The notes under the pieces: generated by a model | The model's input: the letters and a program-made list of their open reading frames with translations, nothing else | Databases searched by the model: none | Told to the model about the DNA's origin: nothing | Program-made: the position numbers and the translations under genes | Shown here: piece after piece, positions 2,150 through 30,623 of the stretch | How the letters are laid out: every line of letters starts with the position of its first letter | Position numbering within the stretch: position 1 is the stretch's first letter | Origin: a virus | IMG/VR virus record: IMGVR_UViG_3300038405_000127 | Span: 1 to 32,662 of that record | Length of the DNA: 32,662 nt | Direction: 5' to 3' (one strand)

Positions 2150-3352
2150 ATGGACAATCATTCAAATAACGATAAAATTTTATCTAATCTACCCAAAGAG
2201 TTAGATCAAGAAGAACTTTCATTTTTCTTTTATCAGACAAGGTCAGCCGCACAAGAATATCATACAATTGCATGCCAACCTATTTATCAAGAAATGACTG
2301 GATCATATTTATCTGGAGTTGTTCTTTCTCAAATAATTTGGTGGTGTGATAACAATGGTGGTGAATTTGAAAAGTCTGACAGAGATTTTGCAGAATGGAT
2401 TAATTGTGGATATGATGCTTTTTTAGCTGCAAAAAATCTCATCATTAATAAATTGAAATTATTTTGTGTAAAAAAAGGTAGATTTGGAACCACAGTCTAT
2501 TATTCTACCAGAGATAGCATTACCAGATTCCGAGAATCTTTTTCAAAAAATAAGGTTGCCTATCCCCCTCGCAAGAAAAAATCTTATTTCCAAAACAATA
2601 ATAATGTTGATATAAATTTATCTAAAACTGTGGATAAACCTATGGATAATGTGGATAACCCAAATATTGTTACTCAATTTACACAAGAGGGTTACGGAAA
2701 ATCCACAATCAGGGTTAGGGAAAATCCACAACCATATAAAGATATATTAGATAATAAAACAAACCATCCATGTGAGAACAAATCCAGATCTGTAGAACAG
2801 GGGATGGATGGATTTAAAAATCATGATGAAGAATTTGAAAGGCAGGCTAGGGAATTCAGGGATATCTTTCCCAATCATGCAAAGAAAGCTGGGATAAGGC
2901 TCGTTAGAGATGCTCTCAAAAAGGCTCTTGTCAAGAAATCATTCGAATTTTTGGCAGAACACGCTAGAAATTTCGTAGGCAATTGCAACACAACCGATAA
3001 AAGTTTTGTGACATGCGCTCACACCTGGCTTAACACAGAAATGTGGCCTAAAGAAAAACCGCCGTCCACCTACGCGATTTTTTGGAGAATTATCGAGGAA
3101 AAAACAGGAAAAGAAAATTTTGATCGATATTTTGGATGGAAAAACTGTCGAACTTCATTGGATGGAGTAGAGATAATACTAGATTATCACGATCCAGAAA
3201 AAAAAGATTTCGTACAGAGAAACTTTTGGAATGTTCTTTCGGAATCTCGCACCAAAATCCCTGAATTGATTGGAAAAAAAATTATATTATCCCTTTCTGA
3301 GGCAGGAAAATATCGATCTGAAATTATTAATCGCTATAAGTTGGCTAGTTAG
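2150..3352 (+). CDS. Phage replication initiator with N-terminal winged helix and DnaA-N-like C-terminus
   Basis: This 400-residue protein has three recognisable parts. Residues about 38-120 look like the winged-helix N-terminus of phage/plasmid replication proteins (YLSGVVLSQIIWWCDNNGG...). Residues 225-300 match the common phage replication module with an F..IFP...KK.......AL motif and an end motif HTWLNTEMW. Residues 308-383 resemble the DnaA domain I fold (FWRIIEEKTGKENFDRYFGW, then EIILDY and a final GKKIILSL strand), which in DnaA contacts helicase or loader proteins. The linker encodes a repeated VDKP.MDNVDNP stretch whose DNA carries DnaA-box-like 9-mers, a candidate origin. An AAAGGA site lies 10 nt before the ATG. 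The 3' end overlaps the convergent repressor gene by 8 nt. Precise family uncertain; replication role likely. Confidence 0.75.
   Translation: MDNHSNNDKILSNLPKELDQEELSFFFYQTRSAAQEYHTIACQPIYQEMTGSYLSGVVLSQIIWWCDNNGGEFEKSDRDFAEWINCGYDAFLAAKNLIINKLKLFCVKKGRFGTTVYYSTRDSITRFRESFSKNKVAYPPRKKKSYFQNNNNVDINLSKTVDKPMDNVDNPNIVTQFTQEGYGKSTIRVRENPQPYKDILDNKTNHPCENKSRSVEQGMDGFKNHDEEFERQAREFRDIFPNHAKKAGIRLVRDALKKALVKKSFEFLAEHARNFVGNCNTTDKSFVTCAHTWLNTEMWPKEKPPSTYAIFWRIIEEKTGKENFDRYFGWKNCRTSLDGVEIILDYHDPEKKDFVQRNFWNVLSESRTKIPELIGKKIILSLSEAGKYRSEIINRYKLAS
2629..2770. other. Candidate replication origin inside the initiator gene
   Basis: Two perfect DnaA boxes TGTGGATAA (2629-2637, 2650-2658) and one single-mismatch copy TATGGATAA (2641-2649) are followed by two 20-bp direct repeats (2689-2708 and 2712-2731) that differ at one base and are spaced 23 bp, each ending in AAAATCCACAA, itself a reverse DnaA-box-like core. 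An AT-rich stretch (about 2731-2765) follows and could be the unwinding element. Placement of an iteron origin inside the initiator gene is known from lambdoid phages (ori within O). The coding constraint on the VDN-type linker could create part of this by chance. Confidence 0.6.
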
Positions 3353-3632
3353 GGTCATCACCGTGAAGAATATAATTTTCATTGACCTCATCAGGGGGAA
3401 GATTAAAACGATAGATGAACAAGGTTGCCAGAAGTTTCGCTTTGGAAATGGACATAGGATTTTTTCCAGATTCCAGTTTTTCCAGAGTAGTAACGTTAAA
3501 TCCAGTCAATTGGTAAAATTTATTTCTGCTCAGTTTAAGTTTGTTGCGAATGTTTTTTAGCCGTTCCCCAGGCGTTGTCAAAGTTTGATGATACATTGGC
3601 TTATTAACTTCGATTAAAGGTTTTGATTCCAT
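3345..3632 (-). CDS. XRE-family helix-turn-helix repressor
   Basis: With the start at the ATG at 3632 (MESKPLIEVNK...), this encodes 95 residues containing a Cro/CI-type helix-turn-helix: TPGERLKNIRNKLKLSRNKF, then YQLTGFNVTTLEKLESGKNPMS, then a third helical element. This is the classic XRE order in which the recognition helix ends near LEKLESG. An in-frame upstream extension to 3830 would be hydrophobic and would begin upstream of its own promoter, so it is rejected. It is transcribed divergently from the gene at 3778 across a 23-bp palindromic operator and overlaps the end of the replication gene convergently. It is a likely autoregulated lytic/lysogenic or early-gene switch. No C-terminal cleavage domain is present, so it is not a LexA-type repressor. 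Confidence 0.8.
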   Translation of the reverse strand: MESKPLIEVNKPMYHQTLTTPGERLKNIRNKLKLSRNKFYQLTGFNVTTLEKLESGKNPMSISKAKLLATLFIYRFNLPPDEVNENYILHGDDPN

Positions 3633-3716
3633 GATGAGCCTACGTTTTCTCTCTTTTGAAGGCAATAAAATTTTCTTCAAATTTTTTTTGTTGCATCTCA
3701 GAAAATCGTATGATAA

Positions 3717-3755
3717 ATATAACATATAGACATAAAAAATGTCTATAGATAAAAT
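3717..3755. promoter_or_regulatory. Interlocked divergent promoters sharing one palindromic operator
   Basis: TATAGACAT (3725-3733) and ATGTCTATA (3739-3747) form a perfect 9-bp inverted repeat around AAAAA. Plus strand: -35 TAGACA (3727-3732), 17 nt, -10 TAAAAT (3750-3755). Minus strand: -35 TAGACA (complement of 3740-3745), 17 nt, -10 TTATAT (complement of 3717-3722). Both -35 boxes lie inside the palindrome, so one bound repressor dimer would control both the XRE gene and the operon beginning at 3778. Confidence 0.7.
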
Positions 3756-3777
3756 CAATAGAAGGAGGAAGTTAAGT

Positions 3778-4452
3778 ATGAAGATGCACAAAGGATATGT
3801 TGTTATTCCAAGCCAGTCTAATCCTAACATTGGTCTTGTGAAATTTATTGATGAGGGTTCATGCCAACATAAGCCATTTGAGGAAAAAATATATTGTCAG
3901 ACTTTCAAAAATGAAGATGGATTTATTGTACATATGGAAAGGATTGAGAAGGATAGGTACACGCTACATGCTTCGCATTCTTTCAATCATCTTCACGACA
4001 AAATTTCTATGACGATAGAGGATAACTACGACGGCAAAGGAAAAAGTCTGATTTGTAGCTTAAATCCATTAGATGTAGATGATTTCTTGTATTTCGTCGA
4101 TGATGATGAGTTTCTCTTAAAGATATGCATACTTCATTTCTACGTAAGCCTTATGGGAACATTGATGAGCATATCCAAGAAAAGAAGGATCAAAAATATC
4201 ATTCTCTTCGTTGATAATGACTACATTGAGAATTTGGAATGTTATGATCTCATTGTATCTGATATCTCCCATGCAGGTCCTTACTTAACAAGAATGGATA
4301 TTCCCCTTAATGGACAAAATATATCTAAATTTGATAAGTTTGTTGAGAAAACAAAACAACTATTTCCTCAATGGTTGTGGGAAGAGTCAAAAAATAATAT
4401 CAATGCTCGGCGATATATGATATTAAACCCATGTAAAAACATTTTTAGGTAA
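3778..4452 (+). CDS. Unknown 224-aa protein, first gene behind the repressor-controlled promoter
   Basis: The start is placed at the ATG at 3778, which has a perfect AGGAGG 9 nt upstream; an in-frame ATG at 3739 lies inside the operator and is upstream of the expected transcript start. The 224-residue product is alpha/beta, with a hydrophobic stretch (FLLKICILHFYVSLMGTLM) about two thirds of the way along that is too charged at its edges for a clear membrane helix, followed by basic KKRRIKN. No family is recognised. Because the predicted transcript begins almost at the ribosome site, it should be the immediate target of the XRE switch; function unknown. Confidence 0.75.
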   Translation: MKMHKGYVVIPSQSNPNIGLVKFIDEGSCQHKPFEEKIYCQTFKNEDGFIVHMERIEKDRYTLHASHSFNHLHDKISMTIEDNYDGKGKSLICSLNPLDVDDFLYFVDDDEFLLKICILHFYVSLMGTLMSISKKRRIKNIILFVDNDYIENLECYDLIVSDISHAGPYLTRMDIPLNGQNISKFDKFVEKTKQLFPQWLWEESKNNINARRYMILNPCKNIFR

Positions 4453-4478: not shown

Positions 4479-4619
4479 ATGAAAGATATTGCAGATAAGT
4501 ACTATGCTTATTACACCGATCTAGACGGTAATATTGAGTGTGAAGTACATAAAATAAGCCCCAAGGAAATAATGAAGTTAATATTTAATAAAGAATTTAT
4601 AAGTAAATGCGGAAAATAA
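4479..4619 (+). CDS. Small 46-aa protein, truncated paralogue of the next gene
   Basis: A 46-residue reading frame with an excellent ribosome site (AAAGGAGG, 8 nt before the ATG). Its sequence aligns along its length with the N-terminal half of the next gene's product: shared D.YYAY.TDL.G.I...VH.IS..E..KLIF. It then ends shortly after the shared segment. The pair therefore looks like a tandem duplication in which this copy lost, or the other gained, the C-terminal half. Function unknown. Confidence 0.65.
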   Translation: MKDIADKYYAYYTDLDGNIECEVHKISPKEIMKLIFNKEFISKCGK

Positions 4620-4633
4620 AGGAGGTAACTGAA

Positions 4634-4930
4634 ATGAATAAAAAATTAAATATTTGTGATACATACTATGCATACCATACTGATTTGGAGGGAACCATCA
4701 TGGATGGTGTCCATGAAATAAGCAGCAATGAAGTTTTGAAATTGATATTTCAAATAGATACATACAATGAATCTGACGTTACATATTATCCGGAAAACGA
4801 ATATGATTCCGGTGGAAAGCACTGGTTTACATTTGATGTATTAACTATAAATAGTAAAGGACAGTGTTGGAGAGTCTATAAGAGCCTTGATTGTGCATTA
4901 GAGGCTTACCAGCGTTTTACTAATCAATAA
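4634..4930 (+). CDS. Small 98-aa protein, full-length paralogue of the preceding gene
   Basis: Start chosen at the ATG at 4634, preceded by AGGAGG (4620-4625); an in-frame ATG at 4607 lacks such a site and lies inside the preceding gene. The N-terminal half (residues about 9-45) is homologous to the 46-aa product just upstream (YYAYHTDLEGTI, VHEIS, EVLKLIF). The C-terminal half adds a beta-rich segment with HWFTFDVLTINSKGQCWRVYKSLD. The gene is AT-rich and acidic in product. It is spaced 12 nt from the next gene. No known family; presumably an early phage protein. Confidence 0.7.
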   Translation: MNKKLNICDTYYAYHTDLEGTIMDGVHEISSNEVLKLIFQIDTYNESDVTYYPENEYDSGGKHWFTFDVLTINSKGQCWRVYKSLDCALEAYQRFTNQ

Positions 4931-9124: not shown

Positions 9125-10768
9125 ATGAATGTATCATCCGCCAATTCTCTTATCAAACGCTTAATTGATGCCTTTGAGACGCCACAGATAGAAAGAAGCC
9201 AAGAGGTCATCGAAGAAGCGGAAATGATGGAAGAGGATTTCCATACATTTGTCAAGTACGCTTGGCCCATAATGGAACCTGGGACAGAATTTATTGATGG
9301 ATGGCACATACAAGCGGCCTGTGAACATCTTGAAGCTCTCTATAATCTTGATATTAGAAAACTCTTATGGAATGTTCCGCCTGGGACATGTAAATCAAGT
9401 ATCTTTGCTGTGGCTTATCCTGGATGGTTATGGGCGAAGAATCCAACCTTTCAATCTATGTTTTCTTCTTATGGATCGAAACTATCTACTCGTGACAGTG
9501 TAGCATGTCGTCGTCTTATAGAGTCCAAATGGTATAAAGATAGATGGGGACATAAAATCCAACTCACTGATGATGTTAATACAAAATTAAGGTTCGATAA
9601 TAAACAAGGTGGATATCGTCTTGCAACCAGTATAAAGGGAGCTGCCACAGGAGAACACGTTGACCTTATAGGATTTGATGACCCAAATAGTGCGGCTGAT
9701 TCAGAATCAGAAGTAAAAAGAGAGGGAACGAATGACATCTGCGATCGTGTTATGTCCACTCGATTCAATAATCCTAAGACGGGCAGAGTTTGTATTGTTC
9801 AACAACGTCTCCATTCCCAAGATTACTCTGGTCATATTCTGGCCAAAGGAATGGATGATATCGTCCACTTTTGTTTACCAATGGAATTTGAGATTTCACG
9901 AAAATGTGTGACAGTTCCTCTAAAGAGTACAGAAGGTAAGAAGTGGCGTGATCCTCGAAAAGAAGAAGGAGAGTTACTGTGGCCTGAGTTTATGGATGAC
10001 GATTATGTATCAAAGCTTAAGATTAACCTTAAGACTGAATACAACATCGCGGGCCAGCTTCAACAACGACCTGCTCCTGCCGAAGGTGGAATATTAAAGA
10101 AGAGTTGGTTTAAGTGGTGGAAAGAAGCCGCTCCTCCTCAATGTCATTTTGTATTGCAATCTTGGGATACTGCATTAAGCACGAAACCTGATGCTTGTTA
10201 TAGTTGCTGCACAACATGGGGAGTTTTTAATGATCAATATAATGTCTCTCAAGTAATCCTCCTTGATACATGGCATGGGCGCGTCGAGTACCCTGATTTA
10301 AGAAGAATGGCTACTCGACTCGCTCACAATTATCATGACACGCATATCGACTATCCAACCCCAGAAGATTATGTCCTTAAACCTGATATGATTCTTATTG
10401 AAGCTAAAGCGAATGGCTTATCTCTGATTCAGGATTTAGGAAGGGCGGGATTAATCGTCAATAGATTCGACCCTATAAAACATGGAGGAGGGGATAAGGT
10501 TGTGAGAGCAAGATTAATGAGTCATGCTTTGGAAGCGGGGAAAGTATGGGTACCAGCAAAGCCACCACATTTTACATCACTGAGAGGATATGCAGATATT
10601 TTCGTTGAAGCTTGTGGATCATTCCCTAATGATGAGGATTCAAGAGATTTTGTTGACAGTATGAGCCAAGCCATAATAAAGTTGATGAGTTCGGGATTGA
10701 TAGGAAATCCTGATGATGAAGAGTTAATTACAAATTATAAAAGCTGGAATAATGAAAAATTTTATTGA
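9125..10768 (+). CDS. terL: Terminase large subunit (packaging ATPase and nuclease)
   Basis: The 547-residue protein is a clear TerL motor. The ATPase half has an N-terminal FVKYAWPIMEPGTEF..GWHI segment, a Walker A loop NVPPGTCKS at 83-91 and a Walker B LIGFDDP at 181-187. The RNase H-like nuclease half has SWDTA (D348), ILIEAKANG (E426), GGGDKVVRA and DFVDSMSQA (D508, D511). It pumps phage DNA into proheads through the portal and cuts the concatemer. The length is usual for the family. No clear Shine-Dalgarno precedes the ATG at 9125, because the AT inverted repeat ends 3 nt before it; translation may be leaderless or start later, but residues 1-40 look normal for the family. The next gene is 13 nt downstream. 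Confidence 0.95.
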   Translation: MNVSSANSLIKRLIDAFETPQIERSQEVIEEAEMMEEDFHTFVKYAWPIMEPGTEFIDGWHIQAACEHLEALYNLDIRKLLWNVPPGTCKSSIFAVAYPGWLWAKNPTFQSMFSSYGSKLSTRDSVACRRLIESKWYKDRWGHKIQLTDDVNTKLRFDNKQGGYRLATSIKGAATGEHVDLIGFDDPNSAADSESEVKREGTNDICDRVMSTRFNNPKTGRVCIVQQRLHSQDYSGHILAKGMDDIVHFCLPMEFEISRKCVTVPLKSTEGKKWRDPRKEEGELLWPEFMDDDYVSKLKINLKTEYNIAGQLQQRPAPAEGGILKKSWFKWWKEAAPPQCHFVLQSWDTALSTKPDACYSCCTTWGVFNDQYNVSQVILLDTWHGRVEYPDLRRMATRLAHNYHDTHIDYPTPEDYVLKPDMILIEAKANGLSLIQDLGRAGLIVNRFDPIKHGGGDKVVRARLMSHALEAGKVWVPAKPPHFTSLRGYADIFVEACGSFPNDEDSRDFVDSMSQAIIKLMSSGLIGNPDDEELITNYKSWNNEKFY

Positions 10769-10781
10769 CAAGGAGTTTAAA

Positions 10782-11840
10782 ATGAAAACATTTAATAAAT
10801 TAGTTATAATTTTATTAACTTTTTTAAATTTTGATATACAAGGATCAGATGAAACTCCCAAAGATGATGAAAAAATATCTTTACATCAATATCTTTTAGT
10901 AGATGATCCCACTCTTTCTCCTAATGTTAAAAATGAATTAGCTGAGTATGTTTTTGGCATATACAAACAAATAAATGCCGAAAAAGAAATAACATGTAAT
11001 ATGAGAGAGGAAAAAAATAATTTATACACTTTGTTAGATAATTTATCTAAGGAAAATTCAAGTTTATTGGATTCAATAGAATCATTTCAATCTCAATTGA
11101 ATTTATCAAATAAATTATATAAAGACCAGTCAAACGAATTTCAAATAAAATTTGATCAAATAAAAAAACAAAACAATTGTTTAGAGAAAGAAATAAAAAA
11201 ATGTAGAATTGATAATTTTGAAATTATGAATAAATATGAAAACTCCGTAGATGCGATACGAGATGAATATGTTGAAGAAATAAATGAATATAAACTCAAA
11301 ATTAATATTCTAAATGAAAAAATTGTATATAGTGAAAATATAATTATCCATCATCAAATGACCATTGAAGAAAATGAAAAGAAAATTAATCAGTTAGAAT
11401 TAAAAAATAAAATTAAAGATGAAGAATATTTAAAATTGAGGCAATCTTATCAAGATGACTTATTATTATTGGATGAAAATTATAAAAAAAATCTAGAAGA
11501 GCAAAGAAAAACAGATTTAGATGAAAGAAAAAAAATTATTGATATGATAAAAGAAGAAAAAAATAGAGAAAGTCTAGAAAAGAAAAAAAGGGAAAATGTT
11601 AATCAAATGCTAATAAGTGAGATTGATGAATGGAAAGTTCTTCATCAAGAATCATTAAAGGACGTTGAGAAAGAAAAAAAGAAAGTTGATATGTCTGAGC
11701 AAGAAAGGCAAAAGCAAGCAGAAGAATTTAGAAATAAAGATAAGACAGGAAAAAAGTTAGAAGAAGCTGGTAAACAAGTGGCAAAAGAAACTCAAAGAAT
11801 AGGCAGCCAAATCAATTCTGTACGCAAAAAGATTATTTAA
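10782..11840 (+). CDS. Exported coiled-coil protein of unknown function
   Basis: Starting at the ATG at 10782 (AAGGAG 7 nt upstream), the 352-residue product has a classical signal peptide: MKTFNK, a hydrophobic LVIILLTFLNF core and a possible cleavage after DIQG. The rest is almost entirely a long Lys/Glu/Asn-rich coiled coil (about 70-330) ending in a QINSVRKKII tail. Its codon choice is extremely A-rich compared with the terminase and portal that flank it, suggesting later acquisition. An exported fibrous protein between terminase and portal is unusual; possible roles include periplasmic lysis control, superinfection exclusion or change of the host surface, all inferred. It converges with the following minus-strand gene, sharing 4 nt at the stops. 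Confidence 0.7.
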   Translation: MKTFNKLVIILLTFLNFDIQGSDETPKDDEKISLHQYLLVDDPTLSPNVKNELAEYVFGIYKQINAEKEITCNMREEKNNLYTLLDNLSKENSSLLDSIESFQSQLNLSNKLYKDQSNEFQIKFDQIKKQNNCLEKEIKKCRIDNFEIMNKYENSVDAIRDEYVEEINEYKLKINILNEKIVYSENIIIHHQMTIEENEKKINQLELKNKIKDEEYLKLRQSYQDDLLLLDENYKKNLEEQRKTDLDERKKIIDMIKEEKNRESLEKKKRENVNQMLISEIDEWKVLHQESLKDVEKEKKKVDMSEQERQKQAEEFRNKDKTGKKLEEAGKQVAKETQRIGSQINSVRKKII

Positions 11841-12556: not shown

Positions 12557-14881
12557 ATGGACGACGAACAAAACGAATTTCAAGAAGATTACCTATACCG
12601 AGCGCCATCTATCTTAGATCAGATCAATATAAATGAAATAGACATCAATGATGATGAGCCTGTTTTCATACAACCCTCTTATGACGGCCATAACGAAAAT
12701 CTAGCCGAAAAACTATCCGAAAGTGTCTTAGGAAAGATATCCGCTCGTCTTCTCGACGATATTGAAAACGATCTTATATCCCGTAAGGATTGGGAATCTG
12801 GTTTAAGTGAAATCCTAAAACAACTCGGCATTGTTATTGATAAGAGAACATTTCCTTTTGATGGAGCATCTGGCTCTTACTCTCCTATTGTTATGCGGAC
12901 AGTTGTTGAATTTTATGTCAACGCAGTGCCTGAACTTCTTCCTTTAGAAGGGCCTGTAAAACAATACATCATTGGCGATACTACGGATGAACTAGAAGAA
13001 ATAGCTTCACGCGTAGAAGAATGGGCTAATCATTATTTCACGCAAGATGCTCCTGAATTCTATAATGATTTTAAGAAAATGTTGATGTGGCTTGGAACTA
13101 TTGGAGATGCCACACGTAAGACGTACTTCGATCCTATTCTAAAGAGACCAACATCATCCTACCTTCTTCCTCAAGACTTTATCGTTAAATATGGTACCAC
13201 TAGTCTTGATACATGTGAACGCATGACAGAAAGACATCAATTTAACAAGATGGAACTTTCCCAATATCAGAAGGTGGGCCGGTTCAGAGATATCAATATA
13301 TTTGTTGATGAAGAGGGAGAAAATTCTAATCTAGAGAAAACAATAGATTATGTAGAAGGAATGACGACTCCTAACTATGAAGATGGGGATTTATTCACAA
13401 TCTACGAATCACATGTTCATTTGGATATTTCTGAGATCGAAGAAGAGGATAGTGATGATCAATCCTACAATGGGACAGAAGGATTAAAAGAAAGAAACTT
13501 TCGTCCTTATATTGTCTACGTAGATAAGACAAGCCGAAAGATATTGGGTCTTTATCGTAACTGGGAAGAAGGTGATAAGGATTATAAGAGAGATGATGTT
13601 TATACGCACTATATATATATAGAAGGTCTAGGATTCTATGGTTTTGGTGCTGCTCATCTCATAGGTGGTCTGGCAGATGCTAGTACGAAATTATTACGAC
13701 AAACAATAGATGGTCAGACGCTATCTAATTTTCCTGGTGGACTGCGCACCAAAGGCATGCGTGCTGTTGATAATAATCTAAAAGTTGGACCAACAGAATT
13801 TATTGAAATTGATACAGGTGGCTTACCTATCCAACAGGCCATCATGTTAATGCCTTATAAGGAACCATCACCTTATATTAATGAGTTGAGAAAAGAGCTG
13901 GAAGCGTCAGCATCCGGAATTATGGGAGCTGCTAACGCGCAAATAGCAGATTTTAATCCAAATGTTCCTGTTGGAACCACGTATGCAATGCTTGGTCTCA
14001 TTTACAAAGTGCAAAGCACAGTTATCCGTGGTATCCGTGATTCCTTATCAAAAGAATTCAAACTATTTTATAAATTATTCGCAAAGCACCTTCCTGATGA
14101 AGAATATGAGTTTGATACGGCTGGTGGCTCATCTTTTATTAAGGCTGATTTCTTCCGCGAAAACATAAGTATTATTCCTGTTGCTGATCCTCACGTGACA
14201 TCTGAAGTCCAAAGATTAATGAGAAGTCAGATGTTGGTAGATAATGCCAATCAAGCTCCTGATCTTCATGATCGATATCAGGCTTATAAAATGTTCTATG
14301 AAGCGCTGAAATTGACGAAATCCCAAATTGATCAACTTTTGCCACCTAAAGAAGAAACTATTCCACTCGATCCTGTTACTGAGAATCAAAATCTTATTCA
14401 AGGGAAAACCGCAGAAGCATCTATTGATCAAGATCATGAATCACATATGATTATCCACGGCTTATTGCTTAGTGATTCAAATATGACACCAGAAGTTGCA
14501 GCATTAGTACAAGCCCATATGGCAAAGCACCAATCATTTAAATTTATGTTAGAAATGCAACGCATTACTGGTGTTCAATTACCTGAAAATCCATATGAAT
14601 TGCCGATGGAAGTACAAAATCAGATAGCTATGATGGTTGCCAATGCTGTCCTTCAGCAACAACAGCACCAACAAGAACAATTGCCGCCCCCTATTGATCC
14701 CGCGCTGGTTATGTTGGAAGAAGTCAAAGTAAAAGATAAAGGAATCGATGAAAAGGCTAAGGCTGATCAGCTAAAAGCCCAGACAGAAGCCTTTAAAGCA
14801 CAACTCAATTATGAAGCTGAAATGAAGAAGATTGAGGTCAATGAGAAAGAGTTGGAATTGAAATCTCAGGGACTTATTTAA
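12557..14881 (+). CDS. Portal protein
   Basis: The 774-residue protein is a phage portal of the long type with a C-terminal helical barrel, as in P22-like and related short-tailed phages. Supporting marks are its position after terminase, an N-terminal acidic segment, the TFPFDGASGSYSPIVMRTVVEF stretch, the central GFYGFGAAHLIGGLADASTKLLRQTIDG segment (typical portal wing/stem), and a C-terminal coiled-coil region with H.AKHQSFKFMLEMQ, a QQQQHQQEQLPPPIDP linker and a final EAKADQLKAQTEAFKAQL...K helix. Twelve copies would form the channel through which DNA passes. GAGAGGG precedes the ATG. An inverted AT repeat lies immediately upstream. Confidence 0.9.
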   Translation: MDDEQNEFQEDYLYRAPSILDQININEIDINDDEPVFIQPSYDGHNENLAEKLSESVLGKISARLLDDIENDLISRKDWESGLSEILKQLGIVIDKRTFPFDGASGSYSPIVMRTVVEFYVNAVPELLPLEGPVKQYIIGDTTDELEEIASRVEEWANHYFTQDAPEFYNDFKKMLMWLGTIGDATRKTYFDPILKRPTSSYLLPQDFIVKYGTTSLDTCERMTERHQFNKMELSQYQKVGRFRDINIFVDEEGENSNLEKTIDYVEGMTTPNYEDGDLFTIYESHVHLDISEIEEEDSDDQSYNGTEGLKERNFRPYIVYVDKTSRKILGLYRNWEEGDKDYKRDDVYTHYIYIEGLGFYGFGAAHLIGGLADASTKLLRQTIDGQTLSNFPGGLRTKGMRAVDNNLKVGPTEFIEIDTGGLPIQQAIMLMPYKEPSPYINELRKELEASASGIMGAANAQIADFNPNVPVGTTYAMLGLIYKVQSTVIRGIRDSLSKEFKLFYKLFAKHLPDEEYEFDTAGGSSFIKADFFRENISIIPVADPHVTSEVQRLMRSQMLVDNANQAPDLHDRYQAYKMFYEALKLTKSQIDQLLPPKEETIPLDPVTENQNLIQGKTAEASIDQDHESHMIIHGLLLSDSNMTPEVAALVQAHMAKHQSFKFMLEMQRITGVQLPENPYELPMEVQNQIAMMVANAVLQQQQHQQEQLPPPIDPALVMLEEVKVKDKGIDEKAKADQLKAQTEAFKAQLNYEAEMKKIEVNEKELELKSQGLI

Positions 14882-18514: not shown

Positions 18515-20284
18515 ATGCTCCCAAAAATCATACACTTTGGCGATGAAGGCCGTGAAAAGATAGGCGAAGGTATTAAGATACTAACAGATGCCGTTAAATC
18601 TACATTAGGCCCTCGTGGACGTAATGTGCTCATCGGAAATAAAGGTATGAGGATGAGATTCACCAAAGATGGTGTCTCAGTTGCCAAAGAAGTATGTCTT
18701 TATGATGAAATCCAAGATGCAGGCGCTCATATAATTAGAGAAGCAGCTCTTAACACATGCAATAAAGTAGGAGACGGAACAACGACAGCCACGGTTATTG
18801 CTCAAAATATTATTAGCAATGGTATATCCTGTTATAAAGATAAAATTCCACCCATTGCACTTAAAATAGGAATAGAAAAGGCACTCGAAAAAGTACTGGA
18901 ATTTCTCAAATCTCATTCTAAAGAAATTCAATCAGATGAAGATGTTATAAACATAGCGACAATTTCTGCAAATGGTGATAGAGAATTAGGTAAAATTATT
19001 GCTGATACCTTTAAGAAAGTTGGAAAAGATGGCGCTGTCACTATAGAAGAATCTTCCTCTGGTAATACGGAAGTATCAATTGTTGAAGGATTGCAACTTG
19101 ATAAAGGATATATAAGTCCATACTTTGTCACAAATCCTGCAAAGATGACTTGTGATCTTGATAATCCATATATTCTTATTTATGATAAAAAGATTTCTAC
19201 TTTTTATCCTTTGTTAAGTTTATTTGAATCGATCGCCAAATCCCATGATTCTCTTCTTATCATTGCCGAAGATGTAGATCACGAAGCATTGGGAATGTTG
19301 GTCAAAAATAAAATGAGTGGGCTTCTGAAAGTAGCTGCTATTAAAACACCTTCTTTTGGAAAGCATAGAGATTATCTTATGGATGATCTTAACGTAATGA
19401 CAGGGTCTATGATTGTCTCAGACCATACAGGAATAAAGCTAGAAAGCATCGTAAAAGAGATGCTGGGACGAGCTAAGAAAGCTATCATTTCCCAAGATAA
19501 AACGATTATTATGGGTGGTTATGGAAAAAAGGAAGATATTCACGCAAGATGCGACTTTTTGCAGCATGAAATTGATAATGCGGAAAATGAAGCTGATAAA
19601 AATCATTTCTACGAAAGACTTGCTAAGCTAAATCATGGGGTTGCTGTCATTAAAGTTGGTGGAACAACGGAATTTGAGGTTAAAGAGAAAAAAGATCGTG
19701 TTGAAGATGCTGTCCATGCGACAAGAGCAGCTTTAAAGGGTGGAATTTTACCAGGGGGTGGAATTTCTTTGCTTCGAGCTTCACATTATCTTAATTCTTT
19801 AGATTTTTTGAATGAAATAGATAATCATGAAACCCCAGTTTGTTACGATATGGGAGTGGCTCATGGAATTTATCTTATTGAAAAGGCTTTAAAGGCTCCT
19901 TTTAATCAGATAATGGAGAATGCGGGCCTTATTCCTGAAGAGATTGAAGAAACATTGATATCTATTGGTAAAGGTCCTTCAGAAAACCCAGGCTCAGCTT
20001 ATGGATACAAAGATTTGATATCCCAAAGTAAAGCTACAAATATAAGCATTGAAGAAGAAAAAGAAAAACAATTTAATCAGGGATATGATGCCCTCAATTT
20101 CAAATATGTAGATATGGTAGAGGCCGGTATCATCGATCCCACAGATGTTGTCCTTACATCATTTAAAGATGCTGTCTCTATAGCATCCATGATGTTATCA
20201 ACCAATGTTGTTATGATTGAAGAGAATGAAATTACGATTAATGATCTTCATTCACCTTCAAACCCATATAAAATAAGGATTTGA
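18515..20284 (+). CDS. groEL: Phage-encoded GroEL (Hsp60 chaperonin)
   Basis: The 589-residue product is a full-length group I chaperonin. Residue numbering coincides with E. coli GroEL for the ATP site: STLGPRGRNV (29-38), D52 in TKDGVSVAKE, GDGTTT (86-91), and D398 in VEDAVHATRAALKGGILPGGG. The substrate-binding face keeps Y199, Y203 and F204 (KGYISPYF). It differs by an approximately 35-residue charged insertion at about 500-535, before GIIDPT, and a C-terminal tail ending NPYKIRI in place of the GGM repeats. It would fold phage capsid or fibre proteins in a phage-specific chamber. It lies just before the coat leader and 2 kb after a GroES-like gene. AGAGGA precedes the ATG. Confidence 0.95.
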   Translation: MLPKIIHFGDEGREKIGEGIKILTDAVKSTLGPRGRNVLIGNKGMRMRFTKDGVSVAKEVCLYDEIQDAGAHIIREAALNTCNKVGDGTTTATVIAQNIISNGISCYKDKIPPIALKIGIEKALEKVLEFLKSHSKEIQSDEDVINIATISANGDRELGKIIADTFKKVGKDGAVTIEESSSGNTEVSIVEGLQLDKGYISPYFVTNPAKMTCDLDNPYILIYDKKISTFYPLLSLFESIAKSHDSLLIIAEDVDHEALGMLVKNKMSGLLKVAAIKTPSFGKHRDYLMDDLNVMTGSMIVSDHTGIKLESIVKEMLGRAKKAIISQDKTIIMGGYGKKEDIHARCDFLQHEIDNAENEADKNHFYERLAKLNHGVAVIKVGGTTEFEVKEKKDRVEDAVHATRAALKGGILPGGGISLLRASHYLNSLDFLNEIDNHETPVCYDMGVAHGIYLIEKALKAPFNQIMENAGLIPEEIEETLISIGKGPSENPGSAYGYKDLISQSKATNISIEEEKEKQFNQGYDALNFKYVDMVEAGIIDPTDVVLTSFKDAVSIASMMLSTNVVMIEENEITINDLHSPSNPYKIRI

Positions 20285-27461: not shown

Positions 27462-30400
27462 ATGACATCAGATGTATTTTCAACAGTTGTAAATAGATTA
27501 AATGGTGGGCCTGCTGATCTGGGATATGTAGATTTAGGGGATAATAATAATTTTATTCAATTAACACCAGACGGAATTAATCCTTCGACAGTAATTTTTG
27601 GTATTTGGGAAGGTACTCCTATTATGCCTCAATGGGGTGGGACGGGTGTTGCAAATACAAATACGAGCACAATAACTCTTGGAGGGCCAATTACCTTTTC
27701 TGGTGCTTTTCCTTTTATAGGAAATTTAACAGGATCAACCAATGTAACATTTCCAACTTCTGGTACTTTATTATCAACAAGTATTCTGCCTCTTTCTTTA
27801 GCAAATGGTGGGACAGGTGCTAGTTTAACAGCAAAACCAGGTGGAATATTTTATTGTGGTTTGACAGCCGCAGGCATATCTAATCCAACCTTAACTGCTA
27901 ATCAAGTTTTGGTCTCAGGAAGTGGCCTTTCTTTATCTCCTACTTGGACAAGTCGATTAATTGATGATGCAAACTCAAATCTATTTCTTGGAATAACGGC
28001 TGGAAATACGACTCTTACTGGAAGCTTCAATGTTGGCCTTGGTGATAATGCTGGGACAGGTTTGACAACAGGATCATTAAATACACTTTGCGGTTATGTA
28101 GCGGGACATTCTATAACTTCAGGTACGGGAAATTCTGCCTATGGAGGAGAATCTTTAATATTAGAGACAACTGGAGCTGCAAATAGTGCTTTTGGTAATT
28201 TAGCCCTTCAAAATCAAGTTGGCGCCATAAATAATAGTGCATTTGGTTACGCTGCCGGAAATCTTATATCAAGTTCTACTAATAACTCAATTTTTGGTTT
28301 TGGTGCATTACAACGGGAAACGACTGGTGGATTCAATTGTGCTTTCGGTTCTTTGTCCCTTCAGAATCAACATCAAGTTCTTGGGACAAGTGCTTTCGGA
28401 TACAGTTCAGGTAATTCTATAACGACTGGATCAGACAACTCAATTTTTGGATATACCGCTTTATTCACTGAAAATACTGGGTCTTTTAACTGTGCGTTTG
28501 GCACTAATGCATTAGGTTCTCAACATGGAATATCAGGATCAAGTGCTTTTGGGTGGCATGCTGGTGAAAGCATTACAACGGGAAGCTCAAACAGTGTATT
28601 TGGTTTTAATGCGTTAGCAAATAATACGACCGGCGGTTTTAACTGCGCTTTTGGTTATAATTCTCTTTTCGGATGTGAACCTTCAGTTGGTAATACAGCA
28701 TTTGGATATATAACAGGAAGCTCATTAACTATTGGTCAAGGTAATAGTATTTTTGGAAGTGGGGCTTTAGCCACTGAGTCCGGTGGTTCTTACAATTGTG
28801 CTTTTGGTCTAGCTGCTCTTGCTCATCAAAATCATATAGTTGGATCATCGGCATTTGGATATCAAGCTGGAACAGCACTTACATCGGGTGTTAGAAACAG
28901 TATTTTTGGTTATTCTTCTTTGCAAGCTGAAACATCCGGTGAAAATAACTCATCATTTGGATATCAATCTCTTGCTGCGCAGAATGGAGCATCTAGTAAT
29001 AGTGCATTCGGAGCTTTATCGGGTGCTTTCTTAACAACTGGAGAATTTAACAGTATATTTGGTGCTTTTGCACTTCAATTTGAAACAACAGGAGGATTTA
29101 ACTGTGCATTCGGTAATTTTGCTCTTCTAACCCAAATTGGGGCAACGAGTAATAATGCATTTGGATATAGTGCTGGAACACTTTTAAGTACAGGAAGTAA
29201 TAACTGTATTTTTGGTACAAATTCCTTAGCCACCGAAACAACAGGAAGTTCAAACTGTGCTTTTGGGGTAAATTCTCTTCAGCATCAAATGGGTGTTAGT
29301 GGAAATAGTGCATTTGGACATCTTGCCGGACAACATATTACAACAGGAAATAGCAACAGTATTTTTGGAAATAGTGCTTTATCTATTGAGACAACAGGAA
29401 GTTCAAACTGTGCTTTTGGGGTAAATTCTCTTGGAAATCAATTAGGTGCACAAAATAATAATGCATTCGGATTTAACTGTGGAGGAACTTTAACAACCGG
29501 AAGTTTTAACAGTATTTTTGGGTCAAATGTTTTGCTCGGAGAATCAACTGGAAGCCAAAATTCTGCTTTTGGCTATAATTCTCTGATGAATCAAAATGGT
29601 GTAACGGGAACTTGTGCTTTTGGATATGGTTCTGGTTCTTCGTTAACAACCGGTGCTAACAACAATATGTTTGGAACGAGGTCATTGTTGTCGGAGACCA
29701 CGGGCCAATTCAATTGTGCATTTGGTAATAATTCTCTTGGGTTACAAGTTGGAGCTAGTAATAACACTGCATTTGGATATAATACTGGTTTAAGCCTTAC
29801 AACGGGTGCCTCAAATTCTATATTCGGAGCAGATAGCTTAGGTAGTGAAACGACGGGTTCAAACAACGCTGCTTTTGGTTATCATGCTCTCTTTAACCAG
29901 AATTTAGCAAGTAATACAACTGCAATAGGTTATCAAGCCGGTTTAGCAATTACAAGTGGATCAAATAATACATTCTTGGGAGCAAATACCAATGTAAGTG
30001 TTGGAACATTAACGAATGCGACTGCCATTGGCTATAACACAACAGTTGGCCAGAGTAATTCTCTTGTCTTGGGAAATGGTGTGAATGTTGGTATAGGAAC
30101 ATCTACGCCGAACACAAGTGCCATCCTTGAACTGAACTCAACAACAGGTTCCCTGCTTCTTCCTCGTATGACTGATACTCAGCGTAATGCTCTTACACCT
30201 GCTGCTGGAATGCTTATCTATGATACGACTTCAAATGAAGTTGAATTCTATAATGGTAGTATGTGGGTTAATACAGGAGGAGGAACTAGTACCACCTGGA
30301 TAAATCAAACTACCGGCTCTGCTACGTTAGCTCCTGGTATGAGCTATCTTATTAATAATGGTGCTTCTCTTGTAACACTGACCCTTCCAGTAGCTCCAAA

Positions 30401-30623
30401 TCTTGGTGATACCTATGAAATTGCTGGTTTTTCATCTGGTGGCTGGAAAGTAGCCCAGAATGTAGGTCAGCATATTCAATTTTCTTCTACGTCAACAACA
30501 GCTGGTGTTACAGGATATGCTGCGAGCGCTCAACAATATGATCGTATTTTAATTACATATGCTGCAAGCAATACCTTCTTAGGTGTCGTCTTAGTATGTA
30601 CAGGGGCCATTAGTATTAATTAG
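27462..30623 (+). CDS. Giant repetitive tail fibre with 39 consecutive 17-residue repeats
   Basis: The 1053-residue protein has an N-terminal attachment part with the phage-fibre pattern WGGTGVANT...TLGGPITFSGAFPF...NVTFPTSGT, then residues 190-852 form 39 uninterrupted 17-residue units in three alternating types: NSIFGxxALxxETTGxx, NCAFGxxSLxxQxGxxx and NSAFGYxxGxxITTGxx, a 51-residue superperiod. These resemble YadA/trimeric-adhesin head-like repeats and would build a long left-handed beta-roll or triangular beta-helix fibre. The unit then shortens to 14 (ATAIGYNTTVGQSN, SLVLGNGVNVGIG) before a C-terminal module SAILELNSTTGSLLLPRMTDTQRNALTPAAGMLIYDTT. That module is common in fibre ends. 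GAGGA precedes the ATG. Confidence 0.85.
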   Translation: MTSDVFSTVVNRLNGGPADLGYVDLGDNNNFIQLTPDGINPSTVIFGIWEGTPIMPQWGGTGVANTNTSTITLGGPITFSGAFPFIGNLTGSTNVTFPTSGTLLSTSILPLSLANGGTGASLTAKPGGIFYCGLTAAGISNPTLTANQVLVSGSGLSLSPTWTSRLIDDANSNLFLGITAGNTTLTGSFNVGLGDNAGTGLTTGSLNTLCGYVAGHSITSGTGNSAYGGESLILETTGAANSAFGNLALQNQVGAINNSAFGYAAGNLISSSTNNSIFGFGALQRETTGGFNCAFGSLSLQNQHQVLGTSAFGYSSGNSITTGSDNSIFGYTALFTENTGSFNCAFGTNALGSQHGISGSSAFGWHAGESITTGSSNSVFGFNALANNTTGGFNCAFGYNSLFGCEPSVGNTAFGYITGSSLTIGQGNSIFGSGALATESGGSYNCAFGLAALAHQNHIVGSSAFGYQAGTALTSGVRNSIFGYSSLQAETSGENNSSFGYQSLAAQNGASSNSAFGALSGAFLTTGEFNSIFGAFALQFETTGGFNCAFGNFALLTQIGATSNNAFGYSAGTLLSTGSNNCIFGTNSLATETTGSSNCAFGVNSLQHQMGVSGNSAFGHLAGQHITTGNSNSIFGNSALSIETTGSSNCAFGVNSLGNQLGAQNNNAFGFNCGGTLTTGSFNSIFGSNVLLGESTGSQNSAFGYNSLMNQNGVTGTCAFGYGSGSSLTTGANNNMFGTRSLLSETTGQFNCAFGNNSLGLQVGASNNTAFGYNTGLSLTTGASNSIFGADSLGSETTGSNNAAFGYHALFNQNLASNTTAIGYQAGLAITSGSNNTFLGANTNVSVGTLTNATAIGYNTTVGQSNSLVLGNGVNVGIGTSTPNTSAILELNSTTGSLLLPRMTDTQRNALTPAAGMLIYDTTSNEVEFYNGSMWVNTGGGTSTTWINQTTGSATLAPGMSYLINNGASLVTLTLPVAPNLGDTYEIAGFSSGGWKVAQNVGQHIQFSSTSTTAGVTGYAASAQQYDRILITYAASNTFLGVVLVCTGAISIN
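28029..30017 (+). repeat. 13 tandem 153-bp (51-residue) coding superrepeats
   Basis: Within the fibre gene, 39 units of 51 bp follow in perfect register, grouped in threes (153 bp). Units vary at the protein level (only F-G, the leading N and the T-T-G turn are strong), so they are old or diversifying. Local DNA blocks between neighbouring units are still very similar, for example GGAAGTTCAAACTGTGCTTT near 29243 and 29397. Confidence 0.85.
30045..30230 (+). repeat. Fibre end module, copy 1 of 3
   Basis: This stretch encodes VGQSNSLVLGNGVNVGIGTSTPNTSAILELNSTTGSLLLPRMTDTQRNALTPAAGMLIYDTT. Two other copies lie at about 31270-31455 and 32528 to the window end. Copies 1 and 3 share a 54-bp exact DNA match (30114-30167 and 32596-32649); copies 1 and 2 share several blocks of more than 30 bp. 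Confidence 0.8.

Follow-up and report, generated by a model that had tools for sequence, protein, structure and literature searches.

Linker codons of a phage replication initiator gene as a probable origin with DnaA boxes, iterons and AT-rich DNA

The theta-replication origin of the phage analysed here probably lies within the linker codons of its own replication initiator gene and would consist of DnaA boxes, palindromic iterons and an AT-rich unwinding element, as our sequence analysis suggests. The DNA is the IMG/VR virus record IMGVR_UViG_3300038405_000127, a linear fragment, and the whole stretch analysed (positions 1-32,662, 32.7 kb) is called the window below. We read the arrangement as an in-gene origin of the lambda type with an added host-DnaA module ahead of the iterons. 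The proposed blocks would be the host DnaA boxes at 2629-2658, the iterons for the phage initiator at 2688-2733 and the AT-rich unwinding element at about 2734-2759. A further stretch that melts easily lies at 2584-2623. A preliminary description of this DNA had placed the boxes, the repeats and an AT-rich stretch all within the linker-coding part of the initiator gene, and our coordinates bear this out (Table 1). Its comparison to the lambda O gene, in which the origin is inside the initiator gene, is also supported by the relatives discussed below.

Table 1. Coordinates of the initiator gene and of the elements of the proposed origin in the window.
Feature	Position	Strand	Details	Basis
Replication initiator gene P0001	2150..3352	+	400 aa	phrog_270 match; weak homology to L004 initiator
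AT-rich, easily melted stretch	2584..2623	.	Directly 5' of the boxes	99th percentile instability of record
DnaA box, perfect	2629..2637	-	TTATCCACA (TGTGGATAA on +), codes Val-Asp-Lys	Sequence match
DnaA box, one mismatch	2641..2649	-	TTATCCATA (TATGGATAA on +), codes Met-Asp-Asn	Sequence match
DnaA box, perfect	2650..2658	-	TTATCCACA (TGTGGATAA on +), codes Val-Asp-Asn	Sequence match
Iteron copy 1	2688..2710	+	Imperfect palindrome within 2690-2710	Repeat analysis
Iteron copy 2	2711..2733	+	Imperfect palindrome within 2713-2733; offset from copy 1 by 23 bp	Repeat analysis
AT-rich stretch, proposed DNA-unwinding element	2720..2759	.	After the iterons	97.5th percentile instability of record; similarly placed in most of the relatives examined
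C-terminal domain, may resemble DnaA domain I	3035..3349	+	Predicted helix-helix-strand-strand-helix	Mean pLDDT 54

The window contains clustered consensus DnaA boxes beyond chance. The three boxes share one orientation, span 30 bp and sit in the codons of the disordered linker, two of them perfect and one with a single mismatch, exactly as had been described. The two perfect ones are the only copies of TTATCCACA in the whole 32.7-kb record. When the protein was held fixed and the synonymous codons were redrawn from the usage of the phage, in which GTG makes up just 8% of the Val codons, at least two boxes were obtained in 26 of 20,000 draws; the window was picked for its boxes, hence its chance figures are after the fact and the independent evidence is that of the relatives. 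A chance cluster in an AT-rich gene seems extremely improbable to us. Single boxes do arise by chance, as 400 records simulated with an order-2 Markov model contained 0.55 perfect boxes on average, but 0/400 had a pair of perfect boxes together with a one-mismatch box in the same orientation within 30 bp, and the pattern recurs in relatives that were not selected for boxes.

The two repeats reported 3' of the boxes were recovered at the spacing of 23 bp, as 23-bp units that are 91% identical, and just these two units lie between the codons of the two protein domains. The palindrome has the form GGTTnnGGA-AAA-TCCnnAACC. The peptides encoded by the two differ (YGKSTI and VRENPQ); since the spacing of 23 is no multiple of three, the copies are read in different frames and repetition in the protein cannot explain them. 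The preliminary description had seen opposite AAATCCACA cores in the repeats, a claim we do not retain, as these cores are two positions off TTATCCACA and can more easily be read as the TCC half of the imperfect palindrome. TCCACA in the iterons was likewise rejected as an extra DnaA site, the palindrome half being the simpler explanation and the motif being missing from the iterons of L102, L214 and L300. The AT-rich stretch described after the repeats is indeed present, and the stretch directly 5' of the boxes, absent from that description, is the least stable 40-mer of the initiator gene. The proposed check by cumulative GC skew was run, with the minimum found at 1417, ~1.2 kb from the boxes, where it coincides with a switch in gene direction and the curve stays nearly flat to 2800, so the skew is uninformative either way in this fragment. 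An inverted repeat lies at 2101-2136, just 5' of the initiator start codon, and its TGTTGATATAAA recurs exactly at 2605-2616, beside the DnaA boxes; it may serve as an operator or as another site for the initiator.

The protein P0001 matches the family phrog_270 "replication initiation protein" with E=2.8e-5 (4.3e-8 in the record search), which is its sole informative family match, and it has no Pfam or NCBIfam assignment, including no match to a Pfam winged helix. Its putative domain order is an N-terminal winged-helix-like domain, the disordered linker with the putative origin, a helical middle part and a C-terminal alpha-beta domain. No close relatives were found in IMG/VR, the GTDB genomes and the named phages; the nearest match is the L004 initiator, to which residues 47-136 show weak homology (26% identical). 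This L004 protein, encoded at 2454-4295 in the closest terminase relative, is a 615-aa protein with apparently two phrog_270 matches, and its linker holds several 23-bp iterons and no DnaA boxes. The structure predicted for the whole of P0001 has a mean pLDDT of 36, too low for use. That the C-terminus resembles DnaA domain I, as had been suggested, is plausible but unproven. In its favour are the predicted order of the elements and the C-terminus of the L006 initiator, which matches PF11638 (DnaA_N) with E=6e-5 and 20.4-23.9 bits, below the curated cut-off of 24.6. A shuffle test of the C-terminus is divided, with 4/1000 versus the B. subtilis domain I supporting the resemblance and 703/1000 versus that of E. 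coli speaking against it. Also on the negative side, P0001 has no Pfam match to PF11638 and the C-terminal model has no Foldseek match at E <= 0.001.

We collected relatives through the terminase. The large terminase gene of the window lies at 9125 and the portal gene at 12557, and the terminase searches gave 63 related loci; 65 loci entered the first cluster count and 34 whole records the later searches. At least two perfect boxes within 500 bp were present in only three of the 65 loci, namely the window, L001 and L013, in every case inside the initiator gene and in the same orientation relative to it. A phrog_270 search detected the initiator gene in ten of the 34 whole records, and four of these ten (the window, L001, L013 and L019) have in-gene box arrays in the linker; the linker of L019 has five VD[NK] motifs, three of which are perfect boxes. 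L010 has its box cluster just upstream of the initiator gene instead of inside it. No box cluster was found in five of the ten initiators (L004, L006, L017, L024 and L041), nor were there boxes inside the initiator genes of the named phages checked first, so the boxes are optional. When the 34 records were searched for pairs of boxes within 30 bp, such pairs turned up only in the initiator genes of the window, L013 and L019 and in an intergenic region of L005; the reversed pattern, used as a control, was absent. Two arrays outside genes were also observed. Repeated DnaA-box pairs, one box perfect and three with one mismatch, lie in intergenic DNA 5' of the L010 initiator gene (L190, 494-667). 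The L005 record has an intergenic array with AT-rich flanks (L345, 1501-1605), containing three perfect boxes and one with a single mismatch, upstream of a 153-aa gene; judged by its sequence, it looks like a phage origin of the oriC type outside a gene.

The relatives L001, L013 and L019 were found through the terminase and not through their boxes. Redrawing their synonymous codons, 20,000 times each, gave 2, 596 and 66 hits, respectively, and VD[NK] motifs in other genes of these contigs use the box codons in 0/17 cases. We also scanned viral contigs for VD[NK]xVD[NK]xVD[NK] in any codons, the matches listed being a sample. Among these matches, 25 of the 38 distinct reading frames have two or three exact TGTGGATAA boxes per triple. 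The 25 listed box frames include 11 that match phrog_270, several that match further O-like or DnaD-like families, one that matches MazG and a few that are short and may not be genes, and PF13730 is the commonest Pfam domain among them. The 13 listed frames that use other codons are of various kinds, with RecT, primase, helicase and some replication proteins among them. A first scan for direct box pairs had given 88 clusters, mostly intergenic arrays, 61 of them lacking a reading frame of 80 aa, so an in-gene origin cannot be deduced from the presence of boxes by itself.

One frame of the codon-blind scan, the L280 initiator, belongs to a related initiator type. A protein search with it gave 18 loci, and we compared 11 distinct sequences of 82-100% identity. 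All 25 of the 25 linker motifs in these 11 homologs are exact boxes, T-GTG-GAT-AA, although being related by descent they have no simple probability attached. Elsewhere in the gene, Val is encoded by GTG in 46/256 cases and preceded by T in 48/256, and Asp is encoded by GAT in 113/166. The codons of invariant residues differ over the gene in 28% of the pairwise comparisons, and the homologs have between 1 and 3 boxes. The comparison of codons shows codon-level selection on the boxes in the L280 family. The preliminary description had proposed to compare synonymous positions with relatives, and the boxes turn out to be kept beyond coding need in this family, with support from L001, L013 and L019. 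It had also named amino acids that are kept while the boxes are lost as the result to count against an origin; the opposite was found wherever the comparison was run, on initiators other than the window's own.

These data also bear on the possibility that Val-Asp-Asn/Lys is a functional peptide motif or a simple coding repeat of the linker, with the boxes a by-product. It could be noted for this explanation that the in-gene boxes of the examined O-like initiators are read in the VDN/VDK frame, but the other two same-strand frames of TGTGGATAA have a stop in one case and Trp-Ile in the other, which explains the frame without any peptide function. Moreover, codon usage falls far short of explaining the fixation of T-GTG-GAT, other proteins have VDK repeats in other codons and the box number varies freely among close homologs. 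We therefore regard a peptide origin of the boxes as very improbable.

The order of boxes, then repeats spaced 20-24 bp, then AT-rich DNA was observed in seven genes (the window, L001, L013, L102, L214, L303 and L317), and the repeats are palindromic in most of them. For the window, L001 and L102, some of the spacings cannot be divided by three; these repeats are thus read in different frames and cannot be repeats of the protein. The iterons of the relatives are palindromes of unrelated sequence, as is expected of the sites of phage initiators. In 9 of 24 box genes the least stable 40-mer is located 40-140 nt after the last box, compared to 0 of 13 controls, the interval having been chosen after the layout was inspected. 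Sequence comparison shows that this order of elements recurs in several highly diverged O-like initiator genes; one of the box-bearing relatives, L102, resembles annotated O proteins of the lambda type. The phrase "DnaA boxes as iterons", used in the preliminary description, is unsupported because the boxes and the iterons are separate elements, forming separate blocks.

Several known systems resemble the proposed origin in part. In ori-lambda, four palindromic iterons are followed by AT-rich DNA inside the O coding sequence, and this origin is not known to contain DnaA boxes. The O gene is like the window in that an initiator gene carries its own origin, with iterons and AT-rich DNA in the coding sequence (PMC5043065 for the location of ori-lambda within O), whereas the window has DnaA boxes by the iterons, two iterons rather than four and no recognised partner like lambda P. 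In bacterial oriC, as in the window, TTATCCACA boxes in one orientation lie beside AT-rich DNA; the boxes of the window differ in lying within a phage gene for a protein other than DnaA, together with phage-specific iterons. The RepA_N plasmids (e.g. pSK41), and pPR9 with its PF13730 initiator, have a winged-helix N-terminus, an origin in the linker and a separate C-terminal domain (PMC5703833). They share with the window the design of the linker as origin but without boxes: pSK41 has four Rep boxes, and the same review states that plasmids of staphylococci had yielded no DnaA boxes (PMC5703833). PF13730 is matched by the box-bearing L019 initiator and, below the cut-off, by that of L001. In the Staphylococcus phages 77 and 85, the linker codons of an annotated replication initiation gene likewise contain repeats and AT-rich DNA, but there are no DnaA boxes in that gene, which is followed by a DnaC-like loader gene. 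P1 oriL lies inside repL, with an AT-rich element and in-gene DnaA sites (PMC9948254), and is in these three respects like the window. It differs from our reading of the window in that changing two of the DnaA sites did not significantly affect replication in a reporter assay, while changing the AT-rich region did (PMC9948254). By analogy, that study is the closest experimental precedent and also a warning that in-gene DnaA sites can be dispensable. In the literature searched, largely outside the subscription journals, we found no description of O-like phage genes with arrays of DnaA boxes apart from P1 repL.

An alternative hypothesis could be that the boxes are DnaA sites outside an origin role, through which the host protein represses or times initiator transcription, or which titrate it, the origin being the iterons and the AT-rich DNA or lying elsewhere. 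DnaA also acts as a transcription factor, the P1 sites are dispensable, and iterons occur without boxes in L004 and, with AT-rich DNA, in phages 77 and 85. Against this stand the location of the boxes in mid-gene and not at promoters, the fixed order in which they directly adjoin iterons and AT-rich DNA across several highly diverged genes, and the boxes of L005 in an intergenic AT-rich block that resembles a chromosomal origin. On balance we consider a role outside the origin rather unlikely.

If the linker is the origin, the winged-helix domain of the initiator would bind and bend the iterons, and host DnaA on the adjacent boxes would help to open the AT-rich DNA. The host DnaB helicase would then be loaded, perhaps via contacts of the C-terminal domain of the initiator with DnaA or DnaB. 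Such contacts are proposed because the window has no recognised gene for a helicase or loader. No partner loader of the lambda P type was seen beside P0001 among the neighbouring genes searched, in a record that is a fragment and has many proteins with no match. More generally we speculate, with less than even confidence, that diverged O-like phages repeatedly acquired an oriC-like DnaA module in their linker codons, giving dual-key origins that need the phage initiator and host DnaA on adjacent sites, and that the DnaA domain I-like tail of a subgroup may join the host DnaA-DnaB pathway without a phage loader. If true, TGTGGATAA read as Val-Asp-Asn/Lys in an O-like linker and followed by palindromic iterons and AT-rich DNA would be an origin locator for uncultured phages, and this signature would predict from sequence alone which phages need host DnaA. 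It would also mean that protein linkers can be shaped by a DNA-level code, and would offer a direct route to testing the cooperation of phage and host initiators.

Some other features of the record were observed. An excisionase-like helix-turn-helix gene (1453-1785) is directly 5' of a tRNA-Asn gene, which could mark an attachment site. Two adjacent small genes at 4481-4930 look like tandem paralogs from reading their sequence (YYAYYTDLDGNIE and YYAYHTDLEGTIM). A coiled-coil-like gene at 10752-11840 lies in an island of 25% GC, far more AT-rich than the remaining record, and a large tail-fibre-like protein encoded at 27462-30623 contains many near-repeats of the type NSIFG..AL..ETTGS.NCAFG. 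The window also encodes a phage GroEL-like chaperonin (18515-20284), whose best identity to phage GroELs is about 43%, and the L001 contig has a GroEL-like gene in the same gene order.
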